The notes under the pieces were generated by a model. That model saw only the letters and a program-made list of their open reading frames with translations, did not search any database and had not been told where the DNA came from. Positions 3,059-41,780 of a stretch of DNA of 64,000 nucleotides are shown here, one piece after another (the first letter of the stretch is position 1; every line of letters starts with the position of its first letter). The stretch lies in the NCBI RefSeq assembly GCF_001638985.1, contig NW_017265148.1:1175511-1239510 (forward strand), written 5' to 3'. This DNA is from Phycomyces blakesleeanus NRRL 1555(-) (lineage: Eukaryota > Mucoromycota > Mucoromycetes > Mucorales > Phycomycetaceae). The position numbers and the translations under genes are program-made.

Positions 3059-3897
3059 AAGCGTCTGCAAGCATGCAATCCAAGAGACTAAAACTCATTG
3101 GCACAATGTTTTTTATTCAAGTAGAATACAGCTAATAATATTGATGAGCATATATTGTTAGCCAAAATTATAAATTATTTTCACAAAAGCACTATTCAAT
3201 TATATATATAATCTGTTTTCTTTCAAAAAGAATAAATAAGAAATAAACACTTGCTTTTTATGCGTGTACAAAATAAAAGCTACTTGGGTATCTGCTCAAA
3301 ATTAAACTTGGAAAAGACATAGTATGTTAAAGCACTAGCCTTGAGATTTTATTTTTGTAAGTTATAAGAGACTTGAAGATTTGGGATAATATTGTTATAC
3401 TATATATATGATATACATTTTTATTAAAGGTGCATATATATATCTTTTTATTACAAGAATAAATTGTATTATCCAATACACAATCTATAGGGATATCTAT
3501 TGCTTAGAGTACATTAATATAATACATATAGAGTAAATAAAAGAAGCCTAGTAAGAGATAGAGAGAGTCTTTATATACTGAATATATAAAAGAATCGATT
3601 CGAGAGTAGCAGCAAAAGGCACTCTTTAAATTAATAGAAATATATTTTTTATAAAGGTGATTTATCAACTCACATAAAAGTGCTACGATTGGGCGTACTC
3701 TTACACTTGTTTGATTAGCAGAAGCACACTATCAAAATGCTTCAAATTATTATTATTTTATAAATAATAAGCCAAATAACTATAGCCATTTTTTATGTCT
3801 TGTATGTTTTGTATTCTTTACCAAACACCTCTTGTCTTGGTGTGCTTGCTTTATTAACTTCATAAGTAACTTGGTAACCTTTGAAAGGAAGCAAATA
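3059..3897. repeat. Right arm of large inverted repeat
   Basis: Reverse complement of 1-839 (see the left arm). The sequence continues past 3897 with GGGTGAGAG, so either the right arm ends there or the repeat continues beyond the left edge of the window. No TSD can be tested because the left flank is missing. Confidence 0.95.
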
Positions 3898-19122: not shown

Positions 19123-19545
19123 GGAGAAAATAAAGCAAAATACAATATAAATAAAAGAATTTATGAGAACTTATATAGGTTGTTTATTTCAAAAGAAAAA
19201 TAAAAAATAATAATAATTCAATTATTTTTCTATACAGAAATATCTACTGATATTTATATGTTTTTTCTAATTTGTAATTCAGTGTATGCTTAAGTAATCT
19301 TTATCACAGTGAGTCATCTTCCAGAAGTATTGTTCTTCTGGAAATATCAGGAAAGACTAATTGATATGATACTTCTCCAGTCAGATCAGTCTGAAAGTTT
19401 TGGTAAAGAAGAATATTTATGCTATTAGTAATGTTTTACTATTTCGAGCCAGATACTCGGATAATGTTTCATAATATCAAATAGTTGTAGTTACAGTCTC
19501 TCAATTAAGTATTTGTCTAATAAAAGAAATATGTACATAAAATAT
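19123..19545. other. AT-rich stretch with one hairpin
   Basis: No gene. TTCCAGAAG (19319-19327) and CTTCTGGAA (19335-19343) form a 9-bp stem with a 7-nt loop. The segment is possibly part of an old LTR-type repeat, but I could not match it to another copy. Confidence 0.4.
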
Positions 19546-19762
19546 TGTTGTATTTGGGATACTTTAATATCTGATATCATATATGAACCTAGAAAGAAGT
19601 ACCTGTCAAAGAGGTTGTTATAAATGATTATCCAATATAAAGTCCTATTTGAAACATAAGAGCAATGTGTCAGATCCATCATTGGATCATTTTCAAGAAG
19701 TAGTTTAACTATTATTGCAAAGTCATTACAATGACTCATATCCAGGGTGACTAGATATATCT
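19546..19762 (-). repeat. LTR D-related fragment (minus orientation)
   Basis: It begins TGTTGTATTTGGGATAC, the reverse complement of the right end of LTR D (36440). It runs through TGTCAGATC, TCATATCCAGGGTGAC and AGATATATCT, where it is cut by LTR A copy 1. It matches both outer parts of the LTR D copy at 35149-36440 but lacks the LTR C that sits inside that copy. This independently confirms that C is an insertion there. Confidence 0.75.
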
Positions 19763-20306
19763 TGTGGTATTTCAGGTACGAAACAATAGAAAAATAAAAT
19801 ATTTGATAATAGAGACATATAGAAATACTTTGAGACTGTATATAAGTTGTCCTTTATTCATAAATAAAAAGTGTCCCTTTTTATAAGAAAACACAATCTG
19901 CTCTTGTCATTACGTCTTAGTTTCTTAAGGCTTTCTTCCTTTACTATATTTGGTTATTAGAGTGTATTTACTGCTTAACTAGTGTCGGTGTTACAATTAT
20001 GACATCAAGTCATAAATTGTATTTCTTTAGCTCTTAGCTATTCTTTTCTCTTTTATACTAGAGCTTTAGGGCTTTCTACTAAATTAGCTCCATATGGATC
20101 TGACACAGTTTACCCGGCAGTATGATATAATTATCTTAACAATCTTTAAGATATTATCTACAGTACTAACTGTAATAATTATTGGGCTGATTACTTAATC
20201 GTTTATATATATATTATACTGACAAGATGATAACTACTACGCTATCCCAATATGAATATGTTCTTATATGTGATAAATCCAACATCCGAGTGTCTGGATT
20301 ACCACA
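19763..20306 (+). repeat. LTR A, copy 1 (544 bp)
   Basis: It starts TGTGGTATTTCAGG and ends GGATTACCACA, so it has the TGTGGT...ACCACA inverted ends of an LTR. It is nearly identical to copy 2 at 35660-36202. The flanks (..TATCT and GAACA..) do not match, so no TSD is visible. It may be one end of a rearranged element. No internal gag/pol sequence is attached. Confidence 0.9.
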
Positions 20307-20579
20307 GAACATACTAAGACAAATACTAAGAATCTAGTCAATAATACTAAAAACATAAGAACTAAATCATAGAAGATAATGGTAGAGAAACAGACATTAC
20401 ATGATATCATCATATCATCATCAAGCTAAATACAATGTCTATATAAGCGCATAATACTAATAGCAATAGAACAACATCTCTTTTCTGATTCTTTCACTTC
20501 TTCTAATAAAACAAAATCTCATTGTACTCTTATATGCACTTGTTTTATTTTAAATCTCATTTTTTTCCCATATATAACA
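20307..20579 (+). repeat. LTR C-like sequence abutting E0
   Basis: It shares with LTR C the series AGAAACAGACATYACATGATAT, CAATGTCTATATAA, AATAGCAATAGAA and ACAAARTCTCA, and it ends ATATATAACA at 20579, like LTR C. It directly precedes the surviving part of the E0 transposase, so its insertion probably removed or separated the E0 5' end. Confidence 0.7.
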
Positions 20580-21442
20580 AATGGTTGCAAAGATACCATC
20601 TGAAGATATTAGTGCAAAAGTCCATGTACTAATGACAACTGACAACATCCCAGCTCTGGAAACAATGGCTTGTAATGTGGACTATATAAGTAAGGATGGC
20701 TGCTGCATCTGCCACGTTGTAGGCCAGTCTCCTGGCCATGACCAATATTTTCAAATGGCCTCTACCATAACCATGCGTGCATCAGAAAGCTTCAAGTAAT
20801 TTGACGAGGTAACATTATCAAGCAAAAAAGAGTTAACTGGCCAATCTCCATCCTCACTACTGAATTCCTTCTCTGGTCCGTTCTTTTTTATATTGGATGA
20901 AATGCATGGCGTTTGTCACAGAATTGCGAAACAGGTTTGGGGGCTTGTGTGTGACAAGTATAGAAAAGATCATTCTCTCTCTCTCTTATGCTGCTCAAAA
21001 AGAAATTGGCACTGTAATGATGTCAACTAGAAGAAGCATTCTGGCATCTTTCTATGGTGCTTAGATAAATGTTATGACAAGATCAAAATACTTCTGGGCT
21101 GTGGACTGGGTCAACTTCATCTTGTTTGTTATCTCCACGCTTGTGGTAGAGCATGTCTGCAGCCAAGTTGCCCACAAGGCGTTGCATGATCTTATCCAAA
21201 CAGGCAACCTACTCATAAGCTGGGAGTTATCAGTAGAGAAGAAAACCTTGATCAAAACATAAGCTTTAATTATAATTAATAAAATTGCTTTATAGCTTGT
21301 GTTAACTTATCTTTTTTTTTAGAAATCTCATTGCATGGAATGTATATCTGGAAGCCTTTCTAGCCAAAAAAGAGGTTCAGCTCAAAGTCTTTACAATTAA
21401 TCAGTATTTTCTGCAGCACTATTTTGCAATAATAGAAGCATA
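20580..21442 (+). pseudogene. E0 transposase-like pseudogene, 5' part
   Basis: Conceptual translation, with several stops and frame changes, gives a recognisable transposase-type protein. It contains CCICHVVGQSPGHD (about 20700-20740), then LDEMHGVCHRIAKQVWGLV, IGTVMMSTRRSILASFYGA and AVDWVNFILFVISTLVVE, and finally FTINQYFLQHYFAIIEA at its right end. The DEMH...W and AVDW(V)xF segments resemble transposase-like proteins common in Mucoromycota; the exact superfamily is not certain. The frame is cut at 21442 by DNA transposon E1 and resumes at 38950. The 5' end is replaced by an LTR C-like sequence. It is inactive. Confidence 0.75.
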
Positions 21443-21480
21443 CAGTCAAAGCTCAGTATAGTGATATTTGATATAGTGAT
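21443..21480 (+). repeat. E1 left terminal inverted repeat
   Basis: CAGTCAAAGCTCAGTATAGTGATAT matches the right end in all but two of its first 25 bases. A second TATAGTGAT copy follows. It is preceded by TA. Confidence 0.85.
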
Positions 21481-21585
21481 AATTTTTTGGAAAATTTGGG
21501 CCCGTGTCTGCTTATTATTACTATTTTTCAATATATTTTTTTTGTATTGTTTATTAAAGAAATTTCATAGTCATGTGCTATCTAT

Positions 21586-24500
21586 CTAAAAGAGTGAGTC
21601 TTCTAATTCTATTTTTCTAATATTTAAGGTAGTGATGGCAGCTATTCGGTTAGTGACAAAAGGAACATCATGGAAGATATGTTGGAAGTGAGTGTCCCAA
21701 ATGGCCCCTATTGTGCATCCCAGAATACTATAGGCGGACACTGTGGTATTTTTGACTTCAACTGACATTGGAGAAGAAGGAAGGAGAAGGTGGTCAAACG
21801 TAAGCGATGTGGGATATTCCAGGAACCGGGTTGCAATTTGATGCCAAATTAACTTTTTATGAGGGCATGCCCAGAATAGATGTTCATCATCTTCCAGTTC
21901 GCCACATAAAATGCATTGTGGGTCGTCTACAACCGTAACGTTATGGCTAAATAGCCGCTGCCTACTAGGAACCTTTCCATGCATCAATCTCCACCAGATG
22001 GTATAGATTCTAAGAGGAAGACGTGATTCCCAAAAGCTACGCCAGTTTACTGGTGCTGCATGTGGGAATAGGGGTGAGACTTGGGTGAGGGGCGGTCTTA
22101 TGTGTGCACGGATCACTTGAGCAGAGAGATTGCGTATCCGTGGAACTTTTAGTATCCCAGAGGAAAGGAAGCCTTGAAAGTGGCAAGGTGGAGTCGGAAA
22201 GAAGGAGGCCATCACTGAGCCAGGCTCTTGCAATGGAGAAACTGTGAGCAGAGAGAACCACTCCTTCAGTCGGAGTTCACCATGATCCAAAAGGGTAAAC
22301 AGCGTGTCTATGTTAGACCTGGCTTGTCTTCGTTCATACTGGTTGAGTCGACGTATGCATCCAAGAGTGTAGTCATATATGAATGCATTACATACACGTA
22401 GTTTACCGCAGGTAAAGAAGAGTGGTAGAGGATGAGATGGGGCCAGAATCGTGCTGAGAGGTAACTCCTGTACAGTGACAGGATTTATGACAGTCCAGTC
22501 AAAGGAGAGAGGAATGGTTTTCATAGCACAGAAGATTGTAGGAAAGATACTAAAGGTGTTGAGGCGAGGTGACCGCAGCTCAGGAAACACCAGAGGAAGA
22601 AGTGGGTCGGTTGTATTGCAATACTGCCTTATAAGGTATGCCAGTATTTTGCCGGCAAAAGATAGTGGGGCAGTCTGATCGAGCAAGGGGAGGATCCATC
22701 TGGTTTGCAGTAAGGAATATTGGGTCTGAGGATCCAGGATGCCAAGGCCGCCTTCTCATCGTGGACGAGTGCATAAGTCAAATCTAACAAATGGGTAGCG
22801 TCCATGAGATAAAAATTTAATTACTTCTGAACGAAGTCTGCTTATGTCTGCCGTATTCACTGGAAGGATGTGTATTACATGCCATGCCCTACTCAGAAGA
22901 AGTGAGTTGGCGACTAGCCCTCTACCAAGAACCGAAAGGTTTCACTGTGCTAAAAATTGTGCGTGGTTACGGATCTTTGTAATTACGTCTTCAAAAGCAC
23001 AGGATAGTTGAGTCTTTGAGCTGGTGAGAGGGTAACCGAGATATGTTATTGGCTGCGAGCTACGACTATCATGCCATGAAGTTATTTCGTGGTTCTGCAG
23101 ATGAGAATTCCAAGTCTGTTGTTCACGACCAGATAAGGAGACTGCAACTGTTTTATATCTATTCATTCTGGCATTTGACGCACGGCCATATACCTGGGGC
23201 TGATCCATCAGGGTGTCGAGCTTGTCAGGCGTGCTCAAGAACACTACTACGTCATCAGCATATGCTAAGAACTTAATAGGTGGTGGCTCGTCTATAGACT
23301 GGGGCAATAAAGGGAGGCCATTTGAGATGACAAATCCTTTGAGTTGTTTGGTGGCAAGGATGGTGCAGAGTAGAGGTTCGAGGGCCAGGTTGAAAAGAAG
23401 AGGGGAGAGTGGATCCCCTTGTCGCAAACCTCGCCCTTGTTTGATTGGAGCTGACAGATATCCATTGATATTGATACAAAGTGTTGTGTCAAAGAAGAGG
23501 GCTATGATGGCGAGAATGAAAGTGGAAGGAAACCCAAACCGAAGAAGGCATCGACGCAGGTACTCAGAGTGAACTCGATCATAAGCCTTTTTTTAGTCAA
23601 GTAGTAACCCGATTCTGGGTAGTTTGTATCTTTGAGCCGTATCCATGATTATTCTGGCGACTATTCCATTATCTGCAATGAACCTATTTCCCAAAAACCC
23701 TGTTTGGTATGGGTTGATAGTGAGTTTCATCGCGGTTAGAAGGCGTGATGTGATAAGGTGAGTGAAGAGTTTGGTGTCAGCACATATCAGCGATATAGGC
23801 CTCCAGTTGGACAATGAAGTAAGGTCTCCCTTTTTTGGCAGCAGAATAACCATGGACCGTTTCCATGATCGCGGAATTTCTTGATGTTGGAGAGCTAGGT
23901 TAAAGACTTTGACCATCAGACCTTGGGCAAATTTGTGCTGGAATAGCCAACGAAGAAGTTCGTATGGTATACCATCTACGCCTGGGCTACTGCGAGTGGG
24001 GGAGTGATTAAGGGCTCTCAATATGTCCTCGGCATCCCATTCTGCCGTAATATTCTCTCCCTCTTTGCTAGGTAGGCAGCTGGAATCTGGAATATTGGCC
24101 AACAGTCACTCGACGGCATTATCATTGATGGTTTTGGCAGCATACAAATCAGAATAGAAGGTGTGGGCGCATTTAACCAGACCATCTGGGGATTTGGTTA
24201 GGCCACCATTTTCTTGCAGTGCTCAGATGTTCTGTGCCTGTCGGCGTTCTTTCAAGCATTGGTAGAAGTAGGCATTTGAGCATTCTCCATGTTCGCGCCA
24301 CTTATGTCCTGATCGAAGTGCTATGATGCGGGCATCAACTTCTTGTTGGCAGTCTATCTGATGCTCAACTTCAAGCAGCTGTTGATGGAGGACTGAGGAG
24401 GGATCGTCGTCTAGAGAGTTGGGAACGTATTCTTGTTCTTCTGTCAGTGGGGTTGGTGAGGTGTGGGGTTCGTCCACAATTCTATGACTTTGTGGTTGGC

Positions 24501-25584
24501 TAGTCCCTAAGTATTCCTGAGCTACCTCTTTGTTGGAGATATGTTGCGTATGCTGTGTGTGTGGACGACTGTGTGGGTTGCTTGGGTGTCTCAATTGTGA
24601 GTCACTTTGAGACTGACTGTGCAGCTGTGTTACTATAGCAGATCGTTGCTCCAGTAGTATCTTCTGCATAGTCTTGGCTTTGTTTCTAGCTTTACGACTA
24701 TGGTCTATAGCCATGGCTTTCAAATTAGCCTTTATCAGGTCCCATTGGATGTGAGGTGCTACATTAGAAATCTGTGTTTCTGCTGCATCAAGGAAGGTAG
24801 TCATTGTGTTGCAAAACTCTTTATCAGACAGGAGGTATGGGTTGAACCTCCAGATTCCAGGTCCATGCTGAGGTGACCCAATTGAAAGTTGGATGCTGAT
24901 ACTGAAATGATCCGTCCAAGATCCGGCAACATATTCAACCACAGGAGAGTGTACTGATATCTTTAGGTCGTTTGTGACAAAAAGGAAATCGAGGGTTGAT
25001 CCAGTGGTGAATGTTGGGAGTGGCGTGCAGTTCACAGGAGTGATGGCGTCAAACCAATGGTGGGATAACCATTGGGTCCATGCGGTTGGAAGGGGTGGGG
25101 AGGAAGTGAGTCTTGTGTTGTAATTGAGATCTCCAAATAACACACTTTTTGGAAGTGGTGGAGAACTAAAGGCTAGATAGTGATCTAGAAGAGAGTAGAA
25201 GAGAGGGCGTTGCTCTGGGTGGGCAGGTGCATAAATGACAAAGAAGTTGAGCGGGTCATGTATTTTATGGACGTGGTGAATTGTGGCAGTAAGCAGACGG
25301 CTGTCTGTTAGGTGTGTGGGGTCGAAGGAGTTGAGATGTGGTTCTATATGGTATTCGGGGTTAAAGGAAACTAGACCACAGTGATGTGACCATGTGCTAG
25401 ATTGAGCTTGAAGGAGTGTAGAGATGGATGATTGCATATTTTTGGTGTCAGTATGCGATTCTTGGATGGCGAGGATGTCATATTTTTGTTGTCATATATG
25501 GCGGGCGAAATGTCGACCAGAGGTGGTCAGCATCTTTTTTAAGCCTCTGCAGTTAAGTGAGGCAATTCTTATATGGCTAGACAT
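21586..25584 (-). pseudogene. LINE1 ORF2: endonuclease-reverse transcriptase
   Basis: A single frame of 1333 codons from ATG at 25584. It is interrupted by six nonsense codons and no frameshift (stops at 25492, 24223, 24106, 23593, 22942 and 22756). AP endonuclease: LNCRG, IQESHT, FGDLN, STLDFLF and SWTDHF (about residues 7-220). Reverse transcriptase: SSPGVDGIPYELL, LPKKGDL..SNWRPISL, LLLD-KKAYDRVH, RQGDPLSPLLFNLALEPLL and an intact catalytic LAYADDVVVFL. The C-terminal segment has CILCGELEDDEHLFWAC, a zf-RVT-type knuckle. ORF1 ends 2 nt before this ATG. As it stands the ORF cannot give a functional protein. Confidence 0.92.
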
Positions 25585-25586
25585 AT

Positions 25587-26969
25587 TTACTGCCCTAAAC
25601 CATCAGTGATGATGGTCTTGTGGACAGCTGAAGGATCTGGGAAGAGTCCTTGGGTGGGTTTGTTGTTTTGGTTTCTTTTACCATTAATGATGAGAGTGGG
25701 GTCAACATCATTTCTCAGTCGGGACTTCTGGCCAGTCGCCTTGGGTGGGTTGGCCATAGCTTCATTAGTCATTATGGTGTCTTCATCACCTGCTAGTCCT
25801 CCTTGTGCTTCTGTAGTCGGTCCGACTGTAATTTCGCTACTCTCAGTTATACCTTCGAGACTACGTTGTTGTTCTTCAACGAGGGCAATCTTGTCCTCAA
25901 GTGCATTTTCACTTTGCACAAGTGCCTCTTGCATTTTCGCATTTTCTCTGACTAGACGGGCCAGTTCTTCTTCAAGCTGGCGGTTGTTATCTCCATTCTC
26001 TGGTGAGATAACTTGAGGATCTTCTTGGCGTTGACACTTACGTTCCTTCTCAATTGTTTTGTCAGGACATTGTGCCCGAATGTGGCCTGGCTTTTTACAA
26101 CCATAGCACAGGCGAGGGCTCTTCGTCCTCTTCTCACAGTTTGCTTTCTTATGGCCCTCTCCATGACAATAATTGCATGCCACAGGCATGTTCTGCCACT
26201 TGGCATAAATCTCTCATTCCTCACAAAAGTCAATCTTGTGTGTTAGGGGAATGTATTCAATCCCTTCCTTTGGAGCAGTGTCCAACATGACAAAGCCTTT
26301 GCCCCCAAACAATTGAAACTGAGGGTCCATATAAAGACCAATATGAATCACTCGACCGAAATGGCCCATGACTTCTTGAACTTGAGGCTCTAATTTATCT
26401 GCCCTGCGGAGAGGCAACTTATCAAGGTGTAAGCGAAGGATGTTGCTATCCCCACCAAATGTAGGGGTGGCTAAGAGAGTTTGATGTCCAATGACAACGC
26501 CCTCTGAACAAGCCCTGGGCACATCTTCAATAGTGTCAAATGAAATAATTGCTATATTTCTATCTCTACAGTCTTGACCCAGGGCCCCTACTATGCTAGG
26601 GTACTGGGACTTTAGGGCCTGAAAAAACTGGGCAGCGTCTAAGCCACTATCTGTGATGTCAAAAACAATAGCATTGTCTTCATTCGACGAAATCCACATT
26701 TGGTTTGCCTTTTGCTGGGCTAATTCTGCTTTTGCAGAAGCATCATCAAAAATGGTTACTGGCTTTCCTCGGGCTATACGAGCCTAATTGCCAAAAATTG
26801 GTACGGGTTTGGCAGATTGTGACAATGTTGACAATGAGATGTCAGAGGGGGAGACCGTGTGTAGATGAGTGGGCGAGCCATTAAGGCTAGGCTGAGGTGA
26901 AATCCGTGGGTTGTTGATTGTACTATGCATAGGATCAGGCGGATTTTGTCATCCATTTGTTGTTATCAT
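25587..26969 (-). pseudogene. LINE1 ORF1: CCHC nucleic-acid-binding protein
   Basis: A 461-codon frame from ATG at 26969 to TAA at 25587, with three nonsense codons (26949-26951, 26784-26786, 26214-26216) and no frameshift. The central part resembles an RNA-binding fold (LRLHLDKLPLRRADKLEPQV..). It is followed by two CX2CX4HX4C knuckles, CNYCHGEGHKKANC and CYGCKKPGHIRAQC, and then a coiled-coil-like EEELARLVRENAKMQEAL region. In L1-type elements ORF1 coats the RNA as a chaperone. The TAA and the ORF2 ATG are separated by AT. Confidence 0.9.
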
Positions 26970-27193
26970 TTTTCTTTTTTGGAAGCAACCACAATACGTG
27001 AAATAATCTATTTTTCGATATAGTGATAGTGATAAAATTTGAATCCACCAGTATCACTATCACATCCACTGATTTTTTTTTTCATTTATGGTAATTTCAA
27101 GGGTGCCGAATGATTTTATTGGCTTAGCTAAAGAATAGTTTTACGGAAATTCATATAACCGACACAAGTTAATACCAATTAACGTTTTCTGAC

Positions 27194-28540
27194 ATGAGTA
27201 CCCCTGAGGGATTGAACCCACAGGACAGGGCACACACGTTACGGCAAGGTAACCCACCTAACCGTGCCCAGTCTACAACACTACGTCCAAAGAACAAATC
27301 TTTGCACATCTTTACTGCTCCCAACTTTGACAAGAATATGATTGTGGATCTTGCATCCGCTGCATGGGCTAGTACCATCCATCCAATAAGTGTCTTGTTT
27401 AATCTCGGAAAACTCGTTCCCACAAGGGACGTGGATGATGTTCTCTCTGACCGTGTAGGCCGGATGACCTCTCTCACTCTCCGTTATACTCGCTCAAAAG
27501 ACCTTCTGGCAGAAGCCTTCTTTACTGACCCTTCCTCCCGCACCAAAGCAACGTCCGATGGGTTGACCTATCAGAACACCCGAATCATTGCTATACCAAG
27601 ATTGCCTTCTAACAGCCACATTGTTAAGGTTAATCTTTACCGTATTAACGCCTGCGATCCTAGCACAGATCTACTTGAGCCCATCGAAAATGCATTCCGG
27701 CCTTTTGGCAAAATCGTTCAGCTGAGAGCTTATCTCTCACACCGTGGTACTTTCCGTGGTGAAGCCACTATCTATTTAGACACCTCTGGACAAGATGAAG
27801 TCCGCAGTCTCCCAAGCCATCTCCACCTTGGTGGGTCTCTTTCCTGCCTTGCTGAGCTCTGCTCCACCGATATCACACCTGTGTGTGGATACTGCCGAGA
27901 GGAAGGGCATTATCTACACTCCTGCACAAAACGTCCTCCCCGCGCACCTCGCTGCCAACGATGCGGTGTTCTTGGTCACGCCATAGACAGTCGCAAGTGC
28001 CCCACTCATCCAGACAATATTGAAGCCGAGCGGGCTATCCAAGAGCAGCAGCAGATTGCACTTGCCGATACTGCGTCCCTTCGCGCACACCAATACTCGG
28101 TCGCTATGATAGAGACACCCATACCACCAGTCACTTCATCAACCTTGACTCCTACCCATGCTTCACCCATTCTCAACCCACCTGCTACATACACAATACG
28201 TTGCCGTTCCATATCAGTGATGAATACTCGCGCCATGACAACCAGAAACCGGACCCCACACAACGGCAATCCCCCAATTTCATTTGATACAACTATGTAT
28301 GACCCGACTGGCCGTGGGCTCAATGCCAGCAAGCACTCACCAGGCGCCCGAGGCCTACATAGTCGCGATGATGGCATTAACCCAGCAATTTACACTGATG
28401 ACGAACTTCGACAGTCTCTTTTTGAGGCCACTCTCCAGACTCGCGCCCAAGGTGCATTCCCGTATACTGATCTGGATGGTAACACACCTATGACTGATGG
28501 AACTGAAAAGTCTGACCGCTCAGGTCAGCCAAGTTCATAA
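27194..28540 (+). CDS. LINE2 ORF1: CCHC nucleic-acid-binding protein
   Basis: Intact 448-residue ORF. The central region (about 130-230) resembles the RNA-binding portion of LINE ORF1 proteins (LEPIENAFRPFGKIVQLRAYL). It is followed by knuckles CGYCREEGHYLHSC (about 236-249) and CQRCGVLGHAIDSRKC (about 257-272, slightly expanded spacing). The C-terminal 170 residues are Thr/Pro/Ser-rich and low in structure. The stop TAA at 28538-28540 is followed without a gap by the ORF2 ATG, so termination-reinitiation is a plausible way to make ORF2 (inference). Confidence 0.9.
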   Translation: MSTPEGLNPQDRAHTLRQGNPPNRAQSTTLRPKNKSLHIFTAPNFDKNMIVDLASAAWASTIHPISVLFNLGKLVPTRDVDDVLSDRVGRMTSLTLRYTRSKDLLAEAFFTDPSSRTKATSDGLTYQNTRIIAIPRLPSNSHIVKVNLYRINACDPSTDLLEPIENAFRPFGKIVQLRAYLSHRGTFRGEATIYLDTSGQDEVRSLPSHLHLGGSLSCLAELCSTDITPVCGYCREEGHYLHSCTKRPPRAPRCQRCGVLGHAIDSRKCPTHPDNIEAERAIQEQQQIALADTASLRAHQYSVAMIETPIPPVTSSTLTPTHASPILNPPATYTIRCRSISVMNTRAMTTRNRTPHNGNPPISFDTTMYDPTGRGLNASKHSPGARGLHSRDDGINPAIYTDDELRQSLFEATLQTRAQGAFPYTDLDGNTPMTDGTEKSDRSGQPSS

Positions 28541-31500
28541 ATGACTGTACAACATCTTCACATAGGAACCTTGAATGTTCGAGGTCTCCTCTCTACCATC
28601 AATAACCCGCAATCCCCAAAACTTCTTTTCATCCGACACCTTCATACCCTTTCCCCTTCCCTTTCATTACTTGCTCTCCGAGAGACTCATTTACTCCCTA
28701 TACATCACTCATCTATTCACCTTACATTCCAAGCACAGGCCAGCCTATGGACCCCACATTGCGGCCTCGTCTCTTTCGATCCCCTCCTCCAATTATCTCA
28801 ACTGCATGTTTCTCCTGACAACCGTGCACTCGTTGTCAAGGTTACACATACTGACCATCGTGTTAATCCTTTTGTAGTTGTGGTTATTTATGCACCCAAC
28901 ATTCCTTCCCACCGGCATACTTTCTTCTCCTCATTAGCACGCACTCTCCCTACTGTCATTCCTTCCCTGCCCACCTTTATTCTGGGGGACTTTAACTGTG
29001 ATCTTAGCCATCGTCGCAGCCATCCACCAGACTGGAAAGGATACATTCAGGGTAATTGCGTAGATGCCATCACTAATTCTTCTTCACCCCCGTTACCCAC
29101 TTTCCACAGCTCTCGCACCCACACACGCATCGACTACATTTTCCGTCCACACAGCATTGTTACCAAACGCCCTGAGGTAACATTTATCAATCCTTTATGG
29201 ACTGACCACTGCCTTCTTGCGGTCTCCATTCCTTTCTCTTGCCCACCAGGTCCTGGAGTCTGGAGGTTTAATACGCAATATCTCCTGCATGATGAATTTG
29301 ATGCTCTCATTACCGACTTTCTGGATAAGGCCGACTCTTTTCTCTCTCCTGACATGTCTTCCGGTTCTCGGTGGGATCATATTAAGCATGCTATCAAACA
29401 GCTCGCCCTAACGTACTCTAAACGAGTTCAACGTCAACTCCGAAATCAGGAACGCCATCTTCATCGTGCTTGAAATGAACTTGCAATTCATACTCATTCT
29501 CCTCAACTTCTCCGCATTGAACATAAGCTTGCCACCATACAATTGTCTCGGGCCTCCACCTTGGCTGCCAGATCTGGTGCTAAATGGTGTGAAGCTGGCG
29601 AGACTTCTTCGAAATATTTCTTTTGTGTGCTCAAACAGCAAGCCGCTGCAAAAACTATCTCCTCTCTTGTCGACCCTGTCACTGGCGCGATCTACACCTC
29701 TCCCGCGGATTTGCTTGGCCATACTCACTCTTTCTACCAATCTTTTTACTCGCTGGAACCCATTGACTATCCTGCTGCACACTCTCTTATCGACAAATTC
29801 CCACCTTCTGCCCGTCTGTCTTCCACTGACTCTGCCTACCTCATTGCTGATGTCACCTTGGATGACATTCTGTCTGTCCTTAAAGCCACCCCCATCAACT
29901 CTAGTCCTGGGATGGATGGTTTGCCCTACCCATTATGGGCTCGGCTCTTCTGTCACCCAACGGTCCAAAATCTTGCAGTTCAAGTCTATAATAATGCATT
30001 GCATGGTGTTTTTCCTCCATCTTGGCTGGAAACCGTACTTGTTCTCCTACCAAAAGCCGGTGACACTACCTCTCTCCGCAACTGGCGACCTGTATCTCTT
30101 ATAAACTGTGACGCCAAGTTGTTCACCAAAATGCTTACGTCCCGTTTATGATATGGTATCGACACACTCATAACACCATTCCAAATGGGTTTTATGGCAG
30201 ATCGGTTTATTGCTGACAATGGTTTGCTGACACGCCTTGCCATGTCACATGCACAAATAACCCAAGACCCATTTGTTGCCCTTCTTTTGGATCAGAAGAA
30301 GGCCTATGACCGTGTCCACCCTGCGTATCTTCGTCTTGTCCTGGCCAGAGCCGGTTTCCCCACAATTTTTGTTGACTCCATCTGTGGTCTCTTCTTTTCT
30401 ACTCAAATCCACGTGAATGTGAATGGGCACATATCTTCTTCTTTTCTACATAGCCGGGGGCTACGTCAAGGTGATCCTCTCTCCCCCTTGCTGTTTAACC
30501 TGGCCTTCGAACCTTTGCTTAGATCCATTCTCGCTTCCCCTGCCATCCGTGGTTTCCGATTTCTGGTTCCGCCATCTCTCTCATCGTCCTCTCCTGAGCT
30601 CTCACCACCTCCACTCAAACTTCTTGCTTATGCCAATGACCTTCTCGTCTTTCTTTCTCTGCCTGCCGAGATGAGTGGTCTACTCAACCTTTTGCATATA
30701 TTTGGCTTAGCCTCTAACGCGAAAGTCAATCTCCATAAGACAGTTGCTGTTGCTATGTCTGGACAATTTCATCCGGATTGGGGCCCTGTATTGGATGCTG
30801 CTGATATTCACAGTCGACATGACCGTCACTCTGTCACTGCCATCTGTTACCTAGGCTTCCCATTGAGCTCACATCCGTCCCAGCTTGAGACCTTCCGTGC
30901 GGCTTTACTGGTCAAGCTTAGGAACCATTGCACACTACTTTCTCAAAGATGCTTGTCCGTTCGTGGTAAAAGTATTGTGGCAAACTCACTTCTTCTCAGC
31001 TCAGTATGGCATATGCTATACGTGACTCCTGCACCGCTATCTTTCTTTGCTGCCATTCACACTCATATTCGCTCATTCCTGCGACTAGGTTTCGGTAGCC
31101 CTGGCTGGCCGCTTCTCTGTCTGCCACACAAATCAGGCGGTTTGGGCCTGATTGATCCTGATCATCAACAACGAGCTCTTCAATTGCGCTGGATTCTCCC
31201 TATCTTGCATTCTCACTCTTTTTCTTCTACTTCCTTTATACTGCCATACCTCGAATTTATACTTCCTCTAAACTTTCGTGCTCCTTCTGCCAGTATTGCA
31301 CTTTTGTTTCCCTGTAGTAGTGCAACTTGCCCGACTTCACTTCTTCCACTGCATCGCGCTTGTACCTCACTTCTTCCAGCTTCTCTCCCATCCAACTTGC
31401 AATTGCCACCAACTGTGGTCCAACACTTCCCATTAACTTCAATATGGATGAACGTGCCACCCTTTGTTGACTCTTCTCTGAACCTGAAAACAATTCTGGT

Positions 31501-32254
31501 TTCTGATGCATTTTCTCTGGAGACTGATGACCGTCTTGTCCGCAAGGTTCGTGGTACGTTTTCTTGGGCACGTAATCGTATCGGTCATTTCTTCCAACAG
31601 ATTGATTCTGGCAGGATGGTCCTCTGTCCTTGGTTTATCTCTTGCCTTGAACATCGACCTTCTACTGACACCCCTTCCCCCAATCTTTCCTCACTTCTTT
31701 CTTTGGTACGGTTAGACAACACTAGTTTGGGTAAAGCTAGCACCAGATCTCTTCGACGCCATCTTTGCCCGCAAGTGCCCTCATCTCTAAATTCGTCTGT
31801 CCAACGGCGTAAATTCTGATCTGTCTCTATACCCCACCACTGTCACACAGTCTGGTGGAAAATGCTTTGGGATAGAATGCCAACCCGAAAACGTCTCAAT
31901 CTATTTATATCTCGACGCTTCCCCAGCTCATCTTGCATCTTTTGTCAAGATGCTACTGAAGATCAGTATCACTTTTTCTTTGGCTGTTCTATCAAACGGC
32001 AGGTGTGGAATGTCATTCTCTCTCGCTTTTGCCCGGCCTAGAACCTTGCTGAAATCTGCCTTCTCCTTACCAGAGGCAGCTTCCCACCACGTTCCTCCCA
32101 TCAAGGCCTTTGGATTATCCTTTCTGCTGTCACTGCTAAAGCGATTTGGAGTGCTCATTGGAAATTTGTTTTTGATGACCAACCCTTTCTGTCAGGCGTT
32201 ATGGCACAAAAAGCGTCCACTGTAATAGAAAAACACATCAGTACACTAGCTTAA
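28541..32254 (+). pseudogene. LINE2 ORF2: endonuclease-reverse transcriptase
   Basis: One 1238-codon frame with four nonsense codons (29471, 30149 and 31817, all TGA; 32039, TAG) and no frameshift. AP endonuclease: LNVRG, LRETHL, ILGDFNCDL, TRIDYIF and LWTDHCLL (residues 10-230). Reverse transcriptase: SSPGMDGLPYPLW, LPKAGD..RNWRPVSL, ALLLDQKKAYDRVHP and LRQGDPLSPLLFNLAFEPLL. The catalytic box reads YANDLLVFL: AAT at 30635-30637 replaces the first metal-binding Asp. The C-terminal knuckle is CIFCQDATEDQYHFFFGC. Even without the stops, the Asp-to-Asn change should abolish polymerase activity. Confidence 0.93.
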
Positions 32255-35200
32255 GTATTTCCTGTCTAATTTCCTCTCCTGTTTCATTCCGTTTTTTTCT
32301 TATATTTTCGTATTTCCTCCCCCTTGTCCCTCTATCTCTTATCTGTTCAATGAAGTCCACTTTGATGGCATTTTAAAAGCTGCACGCAGAGCATGACAGC
32401 AGATCAATAAAATACTAAAAAAAAATTTATTGGCTTAGAGAGTGAATCTTTAGTTTAACATGTTTAAATTCAGAAGTAGCTGCACGAAACGACTAGAATT
32501 GTAACAAAAAAGGAATGGCTGTATTTTTTCAGAAAATTATTTTAATTTCAGATAATACAGGATTTTAAAATGGGGGGAGAAATGAAGAGGTCTGAAAAAG
32601 AAAAGATTTTATTGGTCAAAACCCATTGGGAAAAAATTCATTTTTTTTTGTTAAGTCATTTTATTTAGTATGCAATTTTGGCAATGTTCATTAACATCCA
32701 CCAAAACACATCAAACTTCTCAACGTTAAGCAGTTTTTCTCTGCTATTGTTGCCATGCTGCAAGAGAATGTCTATAGCTTGGACAACTTCAACTTCTTCT
32801 TCACAAATCTCCAGGAGATGGCCAAAAGGAACAACAACAATGTTATGCACATTAGCAGTTATTACAGAAGGAGTGTATATGCATTCAATACTATTGCTAG
32901 GTATCATTTGATACTTTTGCATGTAATATTTTTTAACAAAATTATTCATAATGTCTTGTGTGGAAATTGTTTTGACCTGACCAAGAAAGATTTGACCATT
33001 TGCTTGAAAAACACCTGCAAGTGTATCGCACAAAGTGGGAGTCAGCAAACCAGAATTGTCACTATTAGGCCGTGACCCAAAGAAGTGCCTTCTGAATTCA
33101 GGAGATACAGATAGTTCCTGTACATATTTTCCAGCAGTGCATCTCACTTGCTGACTTGTTCCATTCACGTCTCTCATTGCATTGTAATATCCGCCATTAC
33201 ACAAATAATGGCAAATGAATTGCTTTCCAAATCTGAGAGCAACATCTCGAGAAGTTGATTGTCTGTTAGTTTGGAAAAGATGCTCACAGATGAACTTATT
33301 AAATTGTTCACCGTTCTCTGTCTCGTATTGGAGAACTAATCCGAAACAAACGATGTCTTTAGCTATGTGATGGAGGAGGTGAACTTTGGGCTTGAAAGTG
33401 AGACCCTGCTTAGTGTGCTTGCTCTTTTTAATATGTATGTCCAATGCAAGGAGTAGGTTTGTCACTTCATTTATAGCATGTTTTATTAGGACAATGTAAT
33501 AATCAAAGTCTTTGCTTATTCCACGCATGTACAACAAAGATGACAATTTAGCAACTGCATGGAGAGTCTTAGTAAGAAGTTTGAATTTGCTATTTCCAGA
33601 AAAAAGCACTGTCATAACGTTTGGGAGAACTTGCATCAGCTGTTTGTAGTTGCGCCCAGCAAACAAACCATTATGACGAAGCTAGTTTCTGAATCTTCTG
33701 CTATAACTCTTGCAGACTCTGTAAGAACTCAGAGCTGACTCAAGCCTTGCCATTTCTGCTGTTGACATTTTCGAGAACTTAAGGAGGTAAGTGACCAGAT
33801 ACTGTGATAAGCCAAGCAGGATGGTGTGAAGAATTTCAACAGGCATGTCATTTGTTGCATCAAATGCTTCAAGTCTGAGAAATTCTTTGCTGCCATTCTT
33901 ACTATAGTTTAGGTCACACTCATGCTTATACAATTTTGAATCTGTATTGGCAGTGGCAAAAGCATTTAAGAATTCCTTTGTTCTTTTTTCAGCGCCATTA
34001 TGGTCAACTGGAAGATAAGATATCTCTGGCATGTTGTCTTTTTGAGTGCTTCGGGGTGCTTCTAAATGGCCTTTCCTGCAGAAATGCTTTCCTGATGTTC
34101 CACTGTGCATAGCAAGTTGCGATTGCCAAGGATTATCACCCATGAACAATAACAGAGGAGCAACGACCAGAACATCTTCATCATGATCTTTGGAGTACAT
34201 CACAATTCCTTTCTCCAATTCCACAAAATCATCAACAATTGGGGGCAGCATCTCGACAGCATTCAGCACATGATTCGAGGTGGAAATGAACATCACATTC
34301 TCTTGATTATTTCTCACCTCAAGAGGCATCGCGGCAAAATACATGAGATAGCTGTTGTACTTGTTGTATTGCTTTGAAGAGTTTCTGGAAGTGTCGTCAG
34401 AATACAAATTCAGTGGGCAAATAACCACTTTCATTAACCTGCCTCTGGGAAGTTTTATCTTGAATCTTTCAACAAAGGACGTGTTGAGCCACAATTGAGA
34501 CTGAATATCAACAAGAGTGGCATAAACAATCTCAGAAGGGCAGGAAGAAACAGATAAATCACACCCAAGAAAAAGATTGCTGTCTTTCTGAACAATAGAC
34601 AGGATCTTATCGACTTCAATAGTATACTTAAGGAGGGAGACAGCAAAATTTGTGGATCCACCACACGACCAGATGTAAGCATCGTCACAATGACTTAGCA
34701 TAGTACCATGGCCACCATACACTTGGAAGGCATTGGCATATGTAGATCCATTTTTTGTATAAAACTTCTCCAAGAAGAACCAATTTGACCACTCTTGTAC
34801 TTCAACAACACTACCTACCCAATAATCCGAACCTTCGGATGTAGTCATCAGGTTTTGGAACATGTGATTTTCCTTCCACTTGGTGCCTTGGTTGAGGTTC
34901 AACCGTTGATTTTCAGTGAAATCAGAAAGTGATGACACCTGTGCCGTTTTTCCTGGACATGCCAGAGTATGTCTGAGATACTCAGACGGTTTGTTTATCG
35001 AAAATTCATGGCATTGGCCTTTTCGATTTACAGCAGTGCATGTTGTTGTCGGAAATACCGGGATCTCATTCTTCTTTTGCAAGTGATAGTTTATCACTGC
35101 GTCAGGCTTCGGAAAATCCAATTTCTCCCCAACTTCCTCACGAGCCTCTGTTATATTTGTATGTGAAAAGATGGAACGATAAGTACTTTGAGACTCTTTT

Positions 35201-35347
35201 TTATTGTGTTTATTAAAAGTTCAAGTCAAATCCAATTGTCTTAATAAAAGTTATTTTATCTATGATATTTATATTTATTGAGATATATCCAGTCACCCTG
35301 AATATGAGTCATCGTAACGGCTTTGTGATAATAGTTTAAGTACTTCT

Positions 35348-36286
35348 TGTTGTATCCAACATCATTGTAGATTCAAATAGAGTGCACAGACAATAAGACA
35401 AAGACATATTGAATAAGCGACCAGTATCAATTATACATTATTTCTCACACTATCATTAAATAAAGAATATACCAATAACAAGGTCACACACCTTAGTCAA
35501 CATCACTAATCACTCAAACAAGAGCGTGGGTAATAATTTAACAATATATTATCTATGATATAAGAAAACAGACATCACATGATATACTCATATCATTATC
35601 CTAAATACACACGCAATGTCTATATAAACTCACATAGCAAATAGCAATAGAAGATCATCTGTGGTATTTCAGGTACGAAACAATAGAAAAATAAAATATT
35701 TGATAATAGAGACGTATAGAAATACTTTGAGACTGTATCTAAGTTTTTTTTATTCATAAATAAAAAGTGTCCCTTTTTATAAGAAAACACAATCTGCTCT
35801 TGTCATTACGTCTTAGTTTCTTAAGGCTTTCTTCCTTTACTATATTTGGTTATTAGAGTGTATTTACTGCTTAACTAGTGTCGGTGTTACAATTATGACA
35901 TCAAGTCATAAATCGTACTTCTTTAGCTCTTAGCTATTCTTTTCTCTTTTATACTAGAGCTTTAGGACTTCCTACTAAATTAGCTCCATATCGATCTGAC
36001 ACAGTTTACCCGGCAGTATGATATAATTATCTTAACAATCTTTAAGATATTATCTACAGTACTAACTGTAATAATTATTGGGCTGATTACTTAATCGTTT
36101 ATATATATTTTATACTGACAAGATGATAGCCACTACGCTATCCCAATATGAATATGTTCTTATATGTGATAAATCCAACATCCGAGTGTCTGGATCACCA
36201 CATCATCTCTCTTTTCATCAATAAACAAAGTCTCACCGTACTTCTCATCTGTACTTTGTTTTTCTTTCTTTTCTAAAAATATAACA
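35348..36286 (+). repeat. Solo LTR C (391 bp net) inside LTR D
   Basis: Ends TGTTGTATCCAACATC...AAAAATATAACA. Flanked by the duplication CTTCT (35343-35347 and 36287-36291). It contains a TATATAAA box and TCAATAAAC poly-A-type signal and is interrupted by LTR A. Confidence 0.9.
35660..36202 (+). repeat. Solo LTR A, copy 2 (543 bp) inside LTR C
   Basis: Ends TGTGGTATTTC...GGATCACCACA. Flanked by the duplication TCATC (35655-35659 and 36203-36207). It is nearly identical to copy 1 at 19763, with scattered single-base differences. It is the innermost and youngest insertion of the stack. Confidence 0.95.
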
Positions 36287-37768
36287 CTTCTTGAAGATGA
36301 TCTAATGATAGATCTGACACATTGCTCTTATGTTTCAGATAGGACTTCATATTGGATAATTATTTATAACGACCTCTTTGACAGGTACTTCTGTCTGGGT
36401 TCGTATATGATATTGGATATTAAAGTATCCCAAATACAACAGCCTCCAACAACTTCTCCATCACAAACATGATTTTCTTGATAGATCTTTCAGAAGAAAG
36501 ATCTTTATTGTCATGGAACAAGGCATGTAAGATAAATGCTGCCTTGGATTTGAAAGGACTGGTATATCCAGAAAAACCCTCAGAATTGTTTTCTTGATGG
36601 TAGACTGTTTGTGTGTTGCTATCTCCATCCGAATAGGCATTCATGGTCGCTGCTATAGGGTTAGCACCCATAAAAACCGCTCCCATTTCAGTATTAAGGA
36701 CCAGGACATCACTTTCAACATCAAAGTCTGTGCTTTCCCATCGCTTGACATGACTTCTTCATCATCACAAAAGTACTGGTCAAGTAAGTCATCACAAGGT
36801 TGGTCACTATAAACAATTAAATAAGTGGTAAGCATTTGTATTTTACAGTATTAACTAAGAAAGCTCACTTTGGTATATCATCCTCACTATCATCAGAAGT
36901 ACACTCGCTATAGAAATTCTGAGGTGACTCTAAGATGAACTCCATTTGCATAGACATGTTATCAGTTTCTGGGGTGATGGCTGCAGATGAAGACGGTTCT
37001 CCCAAGTTTACACTGCTAACATTAGAGTAAGTTCAAAACTGGCTGCATTTTTTTTAGGATTTCTATAATATGAAAGATTACTAACTTTCTTCTCAAAAGA
37101 ATTCTTTCATATTCCTCGGTTTCCTTTGGATGACATTTATTAAAATGTCTTCTGAGGCCATTCAACGTCTTGTATGTCTTTGGCTTTGGGCAAACGGTGC
37201 ATACAAGTTCTCTGTTTGCAGTAGAATTAATGCTGAGAAATTTATTTCTCTTTGTGGAAAAAGTGTTCTGCATGTTCGAAATATTGAAGTGCAAGAGGTA
37301 GAAAACGCTAATTAATTCCATGCCCACAATATCCTTAATTATGCCAAAAGAAGACTACTAAAAAACAGCCCCACTTGAGAAGATACCAGATAATTTTCTT
37401 TGTTTACTTGTATTCTTTTCTTTTCTTTTATGTTTTCATCACCGTAAAGTAAGTCCAAAGTGTAATCTAACCAAAAGTTATTCTTCACTACATTTAAAAC
37501 ACTCAAGTAAGTGCTCTACATAATGTGTAGCTTTTTAATTAATATTAATTCAAGCTTTTTAATAGATTAATAATTAGATTGCAACATGGGAATGTAATAA
37601 AAAATTACATGAAGATTTTTTAAAATATTTGTTAAGGCTCATAAGGTATGTACTCAAAATATAACTTAGCCAACTATGATCTTCACTCTAATTATCATGC
37701 CAATATTTAGGTAAACTGATCATAATATGTTTCTATCTATCCAATATCAAGGTAATTTCAATAGCTTT

Positions 37769-38300
37769 TGTTGTAAATGAGTATTGACTACTGCTGTAAT
37801 TGAGAATAAGTCTGAAGGAAATAATATAAGGCCTCAGCTATTCTAGTCAAAGGTGTCTACCGATTACTTTATTATTTAACACACAGGTTTAGCATGCATG
37901 ATAGTGATTATATTTCATATGATGATATCACCATAATATGGGATACATCAGTGGATTATTATAAGCATAATTATAACTCATAAACACATTTACTTTCGAT
38001 GTTAATACTTCATTGGGACTACACACATTTATATAATTAATCATACATTAATTATCCCAAGATCACGTTGCTCTGATTAAGGCTCAGATAGGATCGATTA
38101 CCTGACCCCAGTCATATAATTTTCCCAATCCAAAACAATATAAATAGCAGTAGTAGTTCAGTGTAGGAACCTCGTCAAACTTTGATACAAAATCTTTCTC
38201 AATAAACAAAACCTACACAAGTTCTCATGAATCTTCGTTTCTAATTTCAAATCTTGAATTCTTCCTCTTAAAAACTTCTTCAACTTCAACCACCACAACA
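37769..38300 (+). repeat. Solo LTR B, copy 1 (532 bp)
   Basis: Ends TGTTGTAAATGAG...CCACCACAACA. TSD GCTTT (37764-37768 and 38301-38305). It contains AATATAAATAGC (TATA region) and CTCAATAAACAAAAC (poly-A signal region). It lies in the non-coding 5' region of E1. The inverted copy is at 40422-40954. Confidence 0.95.
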
Positions 38301-38884
38301 GCTTTTATTAGCAAATGTCATTTTAATAATTTATTTTTTTTCTTTCACAGTTAGTTTTCCTATATCTGGCTTTTAGAATATTCAAAGCATTGTTTTATTC
38401 TATGTATGCTATTGTTATATAATAGTTGCTATTGCAGAGATTCTATTATTGTAGAATAGCTACTATTATATAGGATGCGTAATTGTAGGATTATTATTTT
38501 TTGAAACTAATAAAATATTTTTTGAAACAATTTTTTTTCTATAATTTCACTCTCATCATCTGACCCCCCATATTTTCTGCTTTTGATAAATCGCTTTTTG
38601 AAAAGGTTCTGTGTTTCCTTGTTCCGTATAAGGAAATTTAGTGCGACCAACTTTATTTCAAAAAACGGCAACTGGTCTTTAAAAAAACCAGTGGGTGTGA
38701 TATCGAGCTCTGAGTTTATTTTTATACTATAAAAAAATAAATGTAGTATATATTTTATTTAACATTTTAAAACAAACCTAATTTCTTAGACAAAATACTA
38801 TGAATCCTATTAGAAAACAGTAGTCACTCACAGCTACATTAGAAATATCACTAAATAATACATAGAGTAAGAAAAAAACACGCT

Positions 38885-38947
38885 CGATATAGTGATAGTG
38901 ATAAAATTTCTGTCCACCATCCATATCACTATATCGAGCTTTGACTG
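38885..38947 (-). repeat. E1 right terminal inverted repeat and subterminal palindrome
   Basis: On -, it starts CAGTCAAAGCTCGATATAGTGATAT. The subterminal segment CGATATAGTGATAGTGATAAAATTT also occurs near the left end (27016-27040), where LINE1 split the left terminal region. Followed by TA at 38948. Confidence 0.85.
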
Positions 38948-38949
38948 TA

Positions 38950-39740
38950 TGGTTTCTTCGGGGCATATAGTGCAGGATCACTAGTAAGGGCAATTGGAGA
39001 ATACTTGTGAGAAATCAAAAGTAATTTGGCAATTGGAATCAATGCTGAGAACATCATGCTTGGCTTGACGCAGATTCGACAGATGAGAATTAAAAATTCA
39101 ACAATGACAACTGCAACAGCAACAGCAACAGCAACAACTCTCCTTCAGTATGATGATTCCTCTGCTGGTAGCCCAATTGACTGAGAGAGTAGTAATGTTG
39201 ATACTGATTCTGACATTGAGTTCTGGGAGTCTTTGAGGAACAGAATAATTGTTGATAGCTTTGAAGGCATTTCTTGTCTTCTAGAACATCTTTAAAAGTT
39301 TTATAAATCAAAGAGAGAAGAATGTAACATGATTGAAACAGCCAGTAAAACAAGCCATAAAGCATTTGTAAATAGTTGTATTATAGACTCTACACTTGAC
39401 TATAATTGTGTAAGAGAGGCAAATAACGTCAGACTCTAGGTTCAGGTTGATGAGAACCGCAACATTGGGAAGAGCTATTTTCTGATCTACAAGGATTTCA
39501 TTGGGAGGGCTGTGATTTTCTTTGAGCACAAGCTCAACAACAAGAGGTGACTGCTTGTCCTTGTCAATGCTTATGTAGTTTGTTTGGTAAATAGTATACC
39601 AGCCATCAACAATGCGCAAATGAAGCTAAAGGTAGTTCACCTGGCAGATGTCAAAGAATTAGTTAGTTTGGTGAAGTCAGACACAACTATAAACACAATA
39701 ACAACAACAGCAACAACATATGTAGTGTGATCAGAGCTTA
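38950..39740 (+). pseudogene. E0 transposase-like pseudogene, 3' part
   Basis: Continuation of the 20580-21442 frame after the E1 insertion: YGFFGAYSAGSLVRAIGEYL, a TGA, then EIKSNLAIGINAENIMLGLTQIR. A (CAA/CAG)n stretch (about 39108-39137) encodes Thr/Ala repeats. Further stops interrupt VDENRNIGKSYFLIYKDFIGRAVIFFEHKLNNKR and KLKVVHLADVKELVSLVK. It ends TYVV-stop near 39730. Inactive. Confidence 0.7.
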
Positions 39741-40117
39741 ACTGCGGCCTAAAACTGTTACTTGATTCTCTTGCAGACCTATAATTTGTTTTTTTTTCTT
39801 GTAATACATTTTTTTTTCAAACTGTCTTAACATATTCTATCCTCCCAGCAAAAAGTTTAAATATTTTTCTCTTTTTTACCTCTGACTTTTAATAGTCATC
39901 AATTGTAATCTACATTTACAAAAAATGTAAGATCTGTAGTTAAAATGTACTTTTGTCTATCAGAAGATTTAATTTTAGGTGGTCAATCTGCTTTTTGTCA
40001 ACCTTTTCAAAAAACAGAGATTTTCCTGTTTCATTTTGAATATTTGGTGATTCTTTTAATTATTATAGACTAAAAACAAAGCCACAAATGCAAAAAACTG
40101 CCCCTATTTGTTGTAGT
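39741..40117. other. AT-rich stretch, probably E0 3' region
   Basis: No gene. T-runs around 39788-39818. No end repeat of E0 could be identified. Confidence 0.4.
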
Positions 40118-41780
40118 GTCAAACCTTTGCTCAGCTGGCTAACTGCCAAGAACTCTCTTTCAGAATTTGATTATTCTATCATTGACTACACTGACTAACC
40201 TCCACCACCACCTATCGAATACTTAGCTTATGCAGATGACATTCTTGTATTTCTTAAGACATCATCTGATCTTGATACTCTACACAGATACCTGGACACA
40301 TATTCCAGAGCCTCAAATGCATAGATTAACATGCATAAGACACAAGTCTTCTCCTTGGCTGGTAACTCACTTCCAGAGTGCCGTACACACCTACAACAAA
40401 AGCTTATTATCTCATGGTATGTGTTGTGGTGGTTGAAGTTGAAGAAGTTTTTAAGAGGAAGAATTGAAGATTTGAGATTAGGAACAAAGATTCGTGAGAA
40501 CTTGTGTAGGTTTTGTTTATTGAGAAAGGATTTTGTATCAAAGTTTGACGAGGTTCCTACACTGAACTACTACTGCTATTTATATTATTTTGGATCGGGA
40601 AAATTATATGACTGGGGTCAGGTAATCGATCCTATCTGAGCCTTAATCAGAGCAACGTGATCTTGGGATAATTAATGTATGATTAATTATATAAATGTGT
40701 GTAGTCCCAATGAAGTATTAACATCGAAAGTAAATGTATTTATGAGTTATAATTATGCTTATAATAATCCACTGATGTATCCCATATTATGGTGATATCA
40801 TCATATGAAATATAATCACTATCATGCATGCTAAACCTGTATGTTGAATAATAAAGTAATTGGTAGACACCTTTGACTGGAATAGCTAAGGCCTTATATT
40901 ATTTCCTTCAGACTTATTCTCAATTACAGCAGTAGTCAATACTCATTTACAACAGTATGATCACACTTAGCCAACTGCTCTTACATACTTGGACTTTCCA
41001 TTAATATTATCTCTTGCACAAATAGATCAATTCTATATCTCACTCTTGAATATAGTTGACTCATCCTGTAGCATATACCTGCAACAATCACTCTTGGTTC
41101 TAGGTCGAGCTACTGTAATAAACACATTGATTCTTTCCCATGTTTGGCATGTTCTTTGAGTAATAATGCTCCTCCAAAAGTTCTTTGACAAACTCCAATC
41201 CATTGTAGACCAGTTCCTCTGGAGGGATGTGTTCCCTATAGCAAGTTTGTTTACTCTATGTTTTTCAAAACTGCAAGGAGACCTAGGTGTGCTGGACCCT
41301 CAGATTCAATAAAAAGCCCTGACTATGTGATAACTACAACCAATTCTTGATAACAAACCCTCAGAATCATTTGTCATCCCTTGGATAAAGCACTTTCTTG
41401 ATCTACACATGTTCTTTGGGGATTTCTGCCTTTCTTTATTGTCTTCTAGACTGTATATTTTCGTTTTACACACAAAGAATGGTGCACTTTCTACTCTCAT
41501 GGGCACAATGAACTCTATCTAATAAGATTTTTCACTTCTCACTTTGAGCTACACCACTTGTTTTTCTCTGAAGATGCTGGATGCTGTAACCTACACAGCT
41601 TCTTCTGCACATGTTAGCTCTGGCTGAAAGCGTTTTAATGCTTCTGATGCTTTCCTTTTTTATCAGGACTTGCAAGTTATTGGCTTCCAAATGCAAACCA
41701 AATGGTCCATCTCACCATATCTGTTTGCTAAGCTGTTTCAGAACCTTGGTACTGTAACTGCTGAGCTCATGCATTTCTTT
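40118..41780 (+). pseudogene. LINE4: reverse transcriptase fragment
   Basis: A 5'-truncated LINE ORF2 remnant starting in the RT domain (PPPPIEYLAYADDILVFLKTS, catalytic box intact in translation). It continues through SRASNA..HKTQVFSLAG, then LTR B copy 2, then YDHT.PTALTYLGLSI and decayed C-terminal sequence with many stops. Reading across the LTR with its TSD counted once restores the alignment with other LINEs. Confidence 0.8.
40422..40954 (-). repeat. Solo LTR B, copy 2 (533 bp), inverted
   Basis: Reverse complement of copy 1 at 37769-38300. TSD GTATG (40417-40421 and 40955-40959). Inserted into LINE4. Together with copy 1 it forms a 530-bp inverted repeat with a 2.1 kb spacer. Confidence 0.95.

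Follow-up and report, generated by a model that had tools for sequence, protein, structure and literature searches.

A six-deep nest of mobile elements in Phycomyces blakesleeanus, ordered by target-site duplications and paralogous empty sites

How was a locus made almost entirely of interrupted repeats put together, and in what order did its parts arrive? The question is raised by a stretch of the window, the 64,000 nucleotides of Phycomyces blakesleeanus DNA analysed here. We read positions 20000-41000 of the window directly, compared the window with itself, and searched the genome (53.5 Mb, 60 contigs) with pieces of the nest to find copies of its components. Junctions were counted over 97 loci, with a row taken as contiguous when it lay no more than 12 bases from the expected spacing. 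The analysis indicated that this repeat-rich locus was almost certainly built by successive landings of mobile elements, forming the chain E0 > M > K > D > C > A (Table 1). Paralogous empty sites, that is, uninterrupted host copies elsewhere in the same genome, were found at all eight junctions. An earlier note had described a five-level nest and proposed that uninterrupted genomic host copies be sought across each junction; such copies were seen at every one, and all of its target-site duplications are present (TA, GCCTC, CTTCT, TCATC, GCTTT, one of 15 bp with one mismatch and one of 13 bp). The count of five levels did not hold, since its DNA transposon E1 consists of two elements, M and K, with one extra junction marked by the 2-bp duplication AT. 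The nest lies where the note had placed it, but E0 extends beyond the right limit given there, 39740, to 40118.

Table 1. Components of the nest, with positions in the window
Element	Positions	Strand	Host	Target-site duplication	Description
E0	20580-40118	+			Left-truncated CACTA-type DNA transposon fragment with Tnp2 transposase remnants; own sequence 20580-21442 and 38950-40118
M	21443-38947		E0	TA (21441-21442 / 38948-38949)	MITE, inverted repeats starting CAGTCAAAGCTC; own sequence 21443-21535, 27023-27060 and 38702-38947
LINE1	21536-27007	-	M	15 bp, CTATTTTTC[A/G]ATATA, one mismatch (21521-21535 / 27008-27022)	LINE, 3' tail at left
K	27061-38699	-	M	AT, 2 bp (27059-27060 / 38700-38701)	DNA transposon, termini CACATCC...GGGTGTG
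K transposase gene	32668-37354	-			Six-frame reading; broken in the window copy
LINE2	27128-32425	+	K	13 bp, TTTATTGGCTTAG (27115-27127 / 32426-32438)	LINE
Solo LTR B	37769-38300		K	GCTTT (37764-37768 / 38301-38305)	
Solo LTR D	35149-36441		K transposase gene	GCCTC (35144-35148 / 36442-36446)	
Solo LTR C	35348-36286		D	CTTCT (35343-35347 / 36287-36291)	
Solo LTR A	35660-36202		C	TCATC (35655-35659 / 36203-36207)	543 bp

The outermost host, E0, is interrupted by M. Three E0 copies (L070, L071 and L072) align contiguously over 20580-21442 and from 38947 or 38963 to 40115-40119, and all five rows at the M site are contiguous; the copies read GAAGCRTATGRTC, where the window instead reads GAAGCATA-[M]-TATGGTT. 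On the right, the window sequence and two of the copies end in GTAGTG and the third copy in ATAGTG; the reverse complement of the window's E0 end starts CACTAC. The E0 copy L071 matches the Transposase_21 profile at 36.2 bits (cut-off 28.6; 4.7e-09) and has a single frame spanning the site, and removing one TA copy leaves the two halves in the window in a continuous frame (...A Y G F F G A Y S...; the corresponding residues of L071 are A Y G P P R A Y S). The register across M, as across D, was worked out by hand from the read frames. The frame restoration claimed for this junction thus fits, and the TA duplication and the uninterrupted E0 copies were confirmed; the inserted element, by contrast, is M and not a transposase-bearing E1.

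At the left edge of the nest, the A-type LTR at 19763-20306 has no matching 5-base flanks, and is bordered by part of a D copy on its left (19545-19762) and by part of a C-related LTR on its right (20306-20579). Apart from a 21-base match, the window contains no other counterpart of the remainder of D (35149-35280) or of the stretch that comes before the C-related part in L029. The simplest reading would be that two A copies, one within D and the other within the C-related LTR, recombined and caused a deletion, which could also explain the abrupt start of E0 at 20580 through loss of its left part. Elsewhere in the window, an inverted repeat of 839 bases with 99.9% identity (1-839 and 3059-3897) lies near the left edge, and a repeat array with shifted copies 85-93% alike occupies 59890-60390.

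The earlier note had read E1 as a single TA-flanked DNA transposon encoding its own transposase, which would leave the nest five deep, and the transposase is indeed flanked by a 32-base inverted repeat with 91% complementarity (21436-21467 and 38923-38954). However, copies of about 380 bp carry the same ends without the transposase. These M copies (L073-L078) measure 377 bp (L073), 394 bp (L077) and 345 bp (the variant L076) from end to end, and in L073, L074, L075, L077 and L078 all or most of M's three segments make up a single short element that has CAGTCAAAGCTC-type ends and no interruption. A query made from the right end of E1 (38301-38960) gave 40 scored candidates, one of them the window itself; in 37 the match was confined to 38695-38955, and in the other two to 38302-38698. 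Comparison at the K site revealed five of six rows to be contiguous, with a deletion variant of M (L076) as the miss; M copies there read CACCAGTATCACTATATCGAGCTC, running straight across as CACTATATCGAG. The transposase relatives, for their part, begin sharply at 27061 and end at 38698 or 38699, with unrelated flanks. Given the short uninterrupted M copies, the TA-flanked element is a MITE with K, a later arrival that brought the transposase, inside it, and the chain is therefore six deep; that E1 is one transposon is extremely unlikely. A MITE wrapped round a later transposon can pass for one autonomous element and so mislead classification by ends and duplications.

Within K, the chain continues through the solo LTRs D, C and A. 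At the D site, 22 of 26 rows are contiguous, or 22 of 23 when the window's own locus (L001, L009 and L039) is left aside, the only other miss being L012, which is 31 bases off. L010 is gap-free across this site, reading CACGAGCCTCCAACAAC; removal of D and one GCCTC brings the flanking frames in the window into register, and in the relative L016 a single 946-aa frame covers the region interrupted by D, which fits the restored frame proposed for this junction. Seven of 33 rows are contiguous at the C site, and these are seven D copies (L064-L069, which read GTACTTCTTGAARATG, and L003); among the misses, three are the window's own locus and 23 show the offset that K copies without D should give, because the 400-base flanks extend past D into K. 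At the A site, 26 of 36 rows are contiguous, comprising all 24 other C loci and the related LTRs L006 and L029, with L043 reading AGATCATCTCTC; the misses are the seven D copies without C and three own-locus rows. Duplications at a single locus cannot alone exclude that the inner insertions travelled with their hosts, D already carrying C, or C carrying A, at its last move. Against this, A is absent from 24/24 other C loci, C from 7/7 other D copies, and D from all but one of the 23 K rows (all counted over the loci read, a subset of the genome's copies), and such co-travel is very unlikely. The locus is also composed of high-copy repeats, parts of which might be unrelated repeats wrongly joined in the assembly; chance joins, however, would not leave eight junctions with duplications matching the uninterrupted sequence of host copies, and we give an assembly artefact hardly any credence. 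Insertion of C into D and of A into C, as the earlier note had it, is borne out by the paralogous empty sites.

The remaining insertions branch off this chain. The LINE1 site in M is contiguous in five of seven rows, where M copies read CTATTTTTCGATATAGTG; the misses are L076 and L010, in which E0-like sequence was recognised and M was not. LINE1 matches zf-RVT (2.3e-12) and Exo_endo_phos (9.8e-05, just under the cut-off), its reverse transcriptase frames coming from six-frame reading; its 3' end is common to L081-L083, and four other copies are 94-97% identical over 22945-24105. LINE2 interrupts K at a site that is contiguous in 12/12 rows, or 11 distinct loci (L012 and L014 being the same locus), with L010 reading GATTTTATTGGCTTAGAGAGTG; it matches RVT_1 (8.6e-19) and Exo_endo_phos (3.1e-05, just under the cut-off), and ten other copies are 96-98% identical. 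At the B site in K, two of four rows are contiguous, L079 running continuously as ATGACTTTTATTAG, and the misses (L023 and L025, 29 and 32 bases off) are diverged copies. A, B, C and D each consist of a single LTR with TG..CA ends and a 5-bp duplication, as solo LTRs do, and complete A copies have exact 5-bp duplications in eight of nine other loci.

To characterize K, we compared its ends and its transposase with those of its relatives. Five relatives read at both ends start CACACC (TACACC in L017) and end GGGTGTG, except for GGGTGTA in L087 (the right end of L018) and AGGTGTG in L088 (the right end of L019). All six copies read at both ends have 2-bp duplications (AT in the window, and TA, AA, TA, TA and GA). 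In the window, LTR D and a stop that separates the frames 32668-33681 and 33685-35220 interrupt the transposase gene; a finger-like N-terminal segment lies within 37025-37354, and many K relatives have a CxxC...H finger-like N-terminus. No Pfam match was found at E<=0.01 in the K frames 32668-33681, 33685-35148 and 36444-36758. In alignment A1 (32 rows), K relatives conserve D370 (32 rows), D457 (30, two gaps), C476-x2-C479 (29 each, three gaps at C476), H709-x3-H713 (28 each) and E730 (29), for which spacing and fold suggest catalytic roles. The modelled transposase of L016 (L016:1621-4461, a relative of window 32668-37354, minus strand) appears to resemble RAG1 and Transib, and a putative BAH-like domain is predicted at about residues 218-342, before the first presumed catalytic Asp; the BAH match does not appear in sequence profiles. 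It is conceivable, though rather doubtful, that K and its Mucoromycota relatives are an undescribed lineage with the RAG1/Transib fold, in which a C2H2-type finger and a BAH-like chromatin reader might steer insertion into silenced repeats and so help to build nests.

Several further observations concern the surroundings of K and M. In L010, near 1434, E0-like sequence directly adjoins K's left end, and in L079, near 1877, an inverted E0-type end is found a short distance from K's right end. To the right of the nest, 41820-44426 holds another gene resembling a transposase, spread over several frames; it shares the EILHNILLG and GEQFNKHIREH motifs with the K transposase, and Pfam gave no match at E<=0.01 for its first three frames. 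None of the five DDE_1 matches read, out of 51, belonged to an autonomous element sharing the ends of M. These five (L093-L097) are copies of a 2.87-kb DDE_1 element with different, TA-flanked ends (CAGTGGTCCCTCGATAA), an internal CAGTCAAAGCTTGAT motif resembling M's end and open frames of 330 aa; the copies are about 98-99% alike, and the element looks recently active.

The order of arrival is as follows. The CACTA fragment E0 was there first, and the TA-targeting MITE M landed in it; K and, independently, LINE1 inserted into M. LINE2, LTR B and LTR D entered K, LTR C entered D, and LTR A entered C. A, B, C and D probably arrived as two-LTR retrotransposons and later collapsed to solo LTRs, recombination between an element's two LTRs being the standard route. 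For C, same-strand LTR pairs are separated by about 5.13 kb, and for A and B by about 5.6 kb, as judged by position. M and all later insertions landed in older mobile DNA and so broke transposon genes here and no host gene; the nest itself has no function beyond being a record of arrivals.

The strict relative order that the earlier note had claimed holds only along the chain: nesting strictly orders E0, M, K, D, C and A, and shows LINE1 to be younger than M, and LINE2 and B younger than K. It gives no order for LINE1 relative to K, nor among LINE2, B and D. The note's insertions of LINE1, LINE2 and B into E1, with their duplications, likewise stand, with LINE1 now assigned to M and the other two to K. 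This order applies to the individual copies and not to whole families. Towards the inside of the chain, identity to the best other copy increases or stays level, from 84-89% for E0 (three copies read) through 95% for M (right part), 95% for K and 97% for D to 99% for both C and A, in agreement with the nesting order, as a crude clock of single-copy similarities rather than dates; off the chain, it is 97% for LINE1, 98% for LINE2 and 99% for B.

Nested transposable-element clusters are known from plants and fungi, where insertions within insertions are likewise ordered by interruption and duplications, and the underlying process is ordinary. What distinguishes this locus is that a CACTA element, a MITE, another DNA transposon, LINEs and solo LTRs occur together in six levels. 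With paralogous empty sites at all of its junctions, the six-deep chain makes the relative order of copies from six families unusually secure in an early-diverging fungus, and the nest offers a ready test case for repeat-dating tools. TinT (PMC3014933) and TRANScendence (PMC5657132) are tools that derive chronologies from nested insertions.

E0 shares with CACTA/EnSpm elements the Tnp2 transposase match, above cut-off in L071, and the CACTAC-type end, which is known from the right side alone since the left is truncated in the window. MITEs of the pogo/Tigger type are short and non-coding, with TA duplications and inverted repeats starting CAG; M likewise has the TA duplication, inverted repeats starting CAGT and, in the three copies measured, a length of 345-394 bp. 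K could be placed in neither of two classes that were considered. EnSpm/CACTA proper would require 3 bp, the duplication length given for fungal EnSpm in PMC12730594, whereas K has 2 bp in 6/6 copies and the uninterrupted M sequence permits at most 2; the Pfam Plavaka profile matches one of 32 rows, not including L016, and the ends differ. Among the lineages compared, EnSpm ends are CAC..GTG with a 3-bp duplication, ESTA has TA, PlavakaA ends are TGT..ACA and PlavakaB ends CATCA..TGATG; the CAC..GTG ends of K combined with its mixed 2-bp duplications match none of these four. K does resemble the CMCT clade, with which it shares 5'-CA..TG-3' termini (some copies having a changed terminal base) and duplications in the 2-5 bp range, along with the conserved D/D/C-C/H-H/E residues of its relatives and, as far as the model indicates, a RAG1/Transib-type fold.
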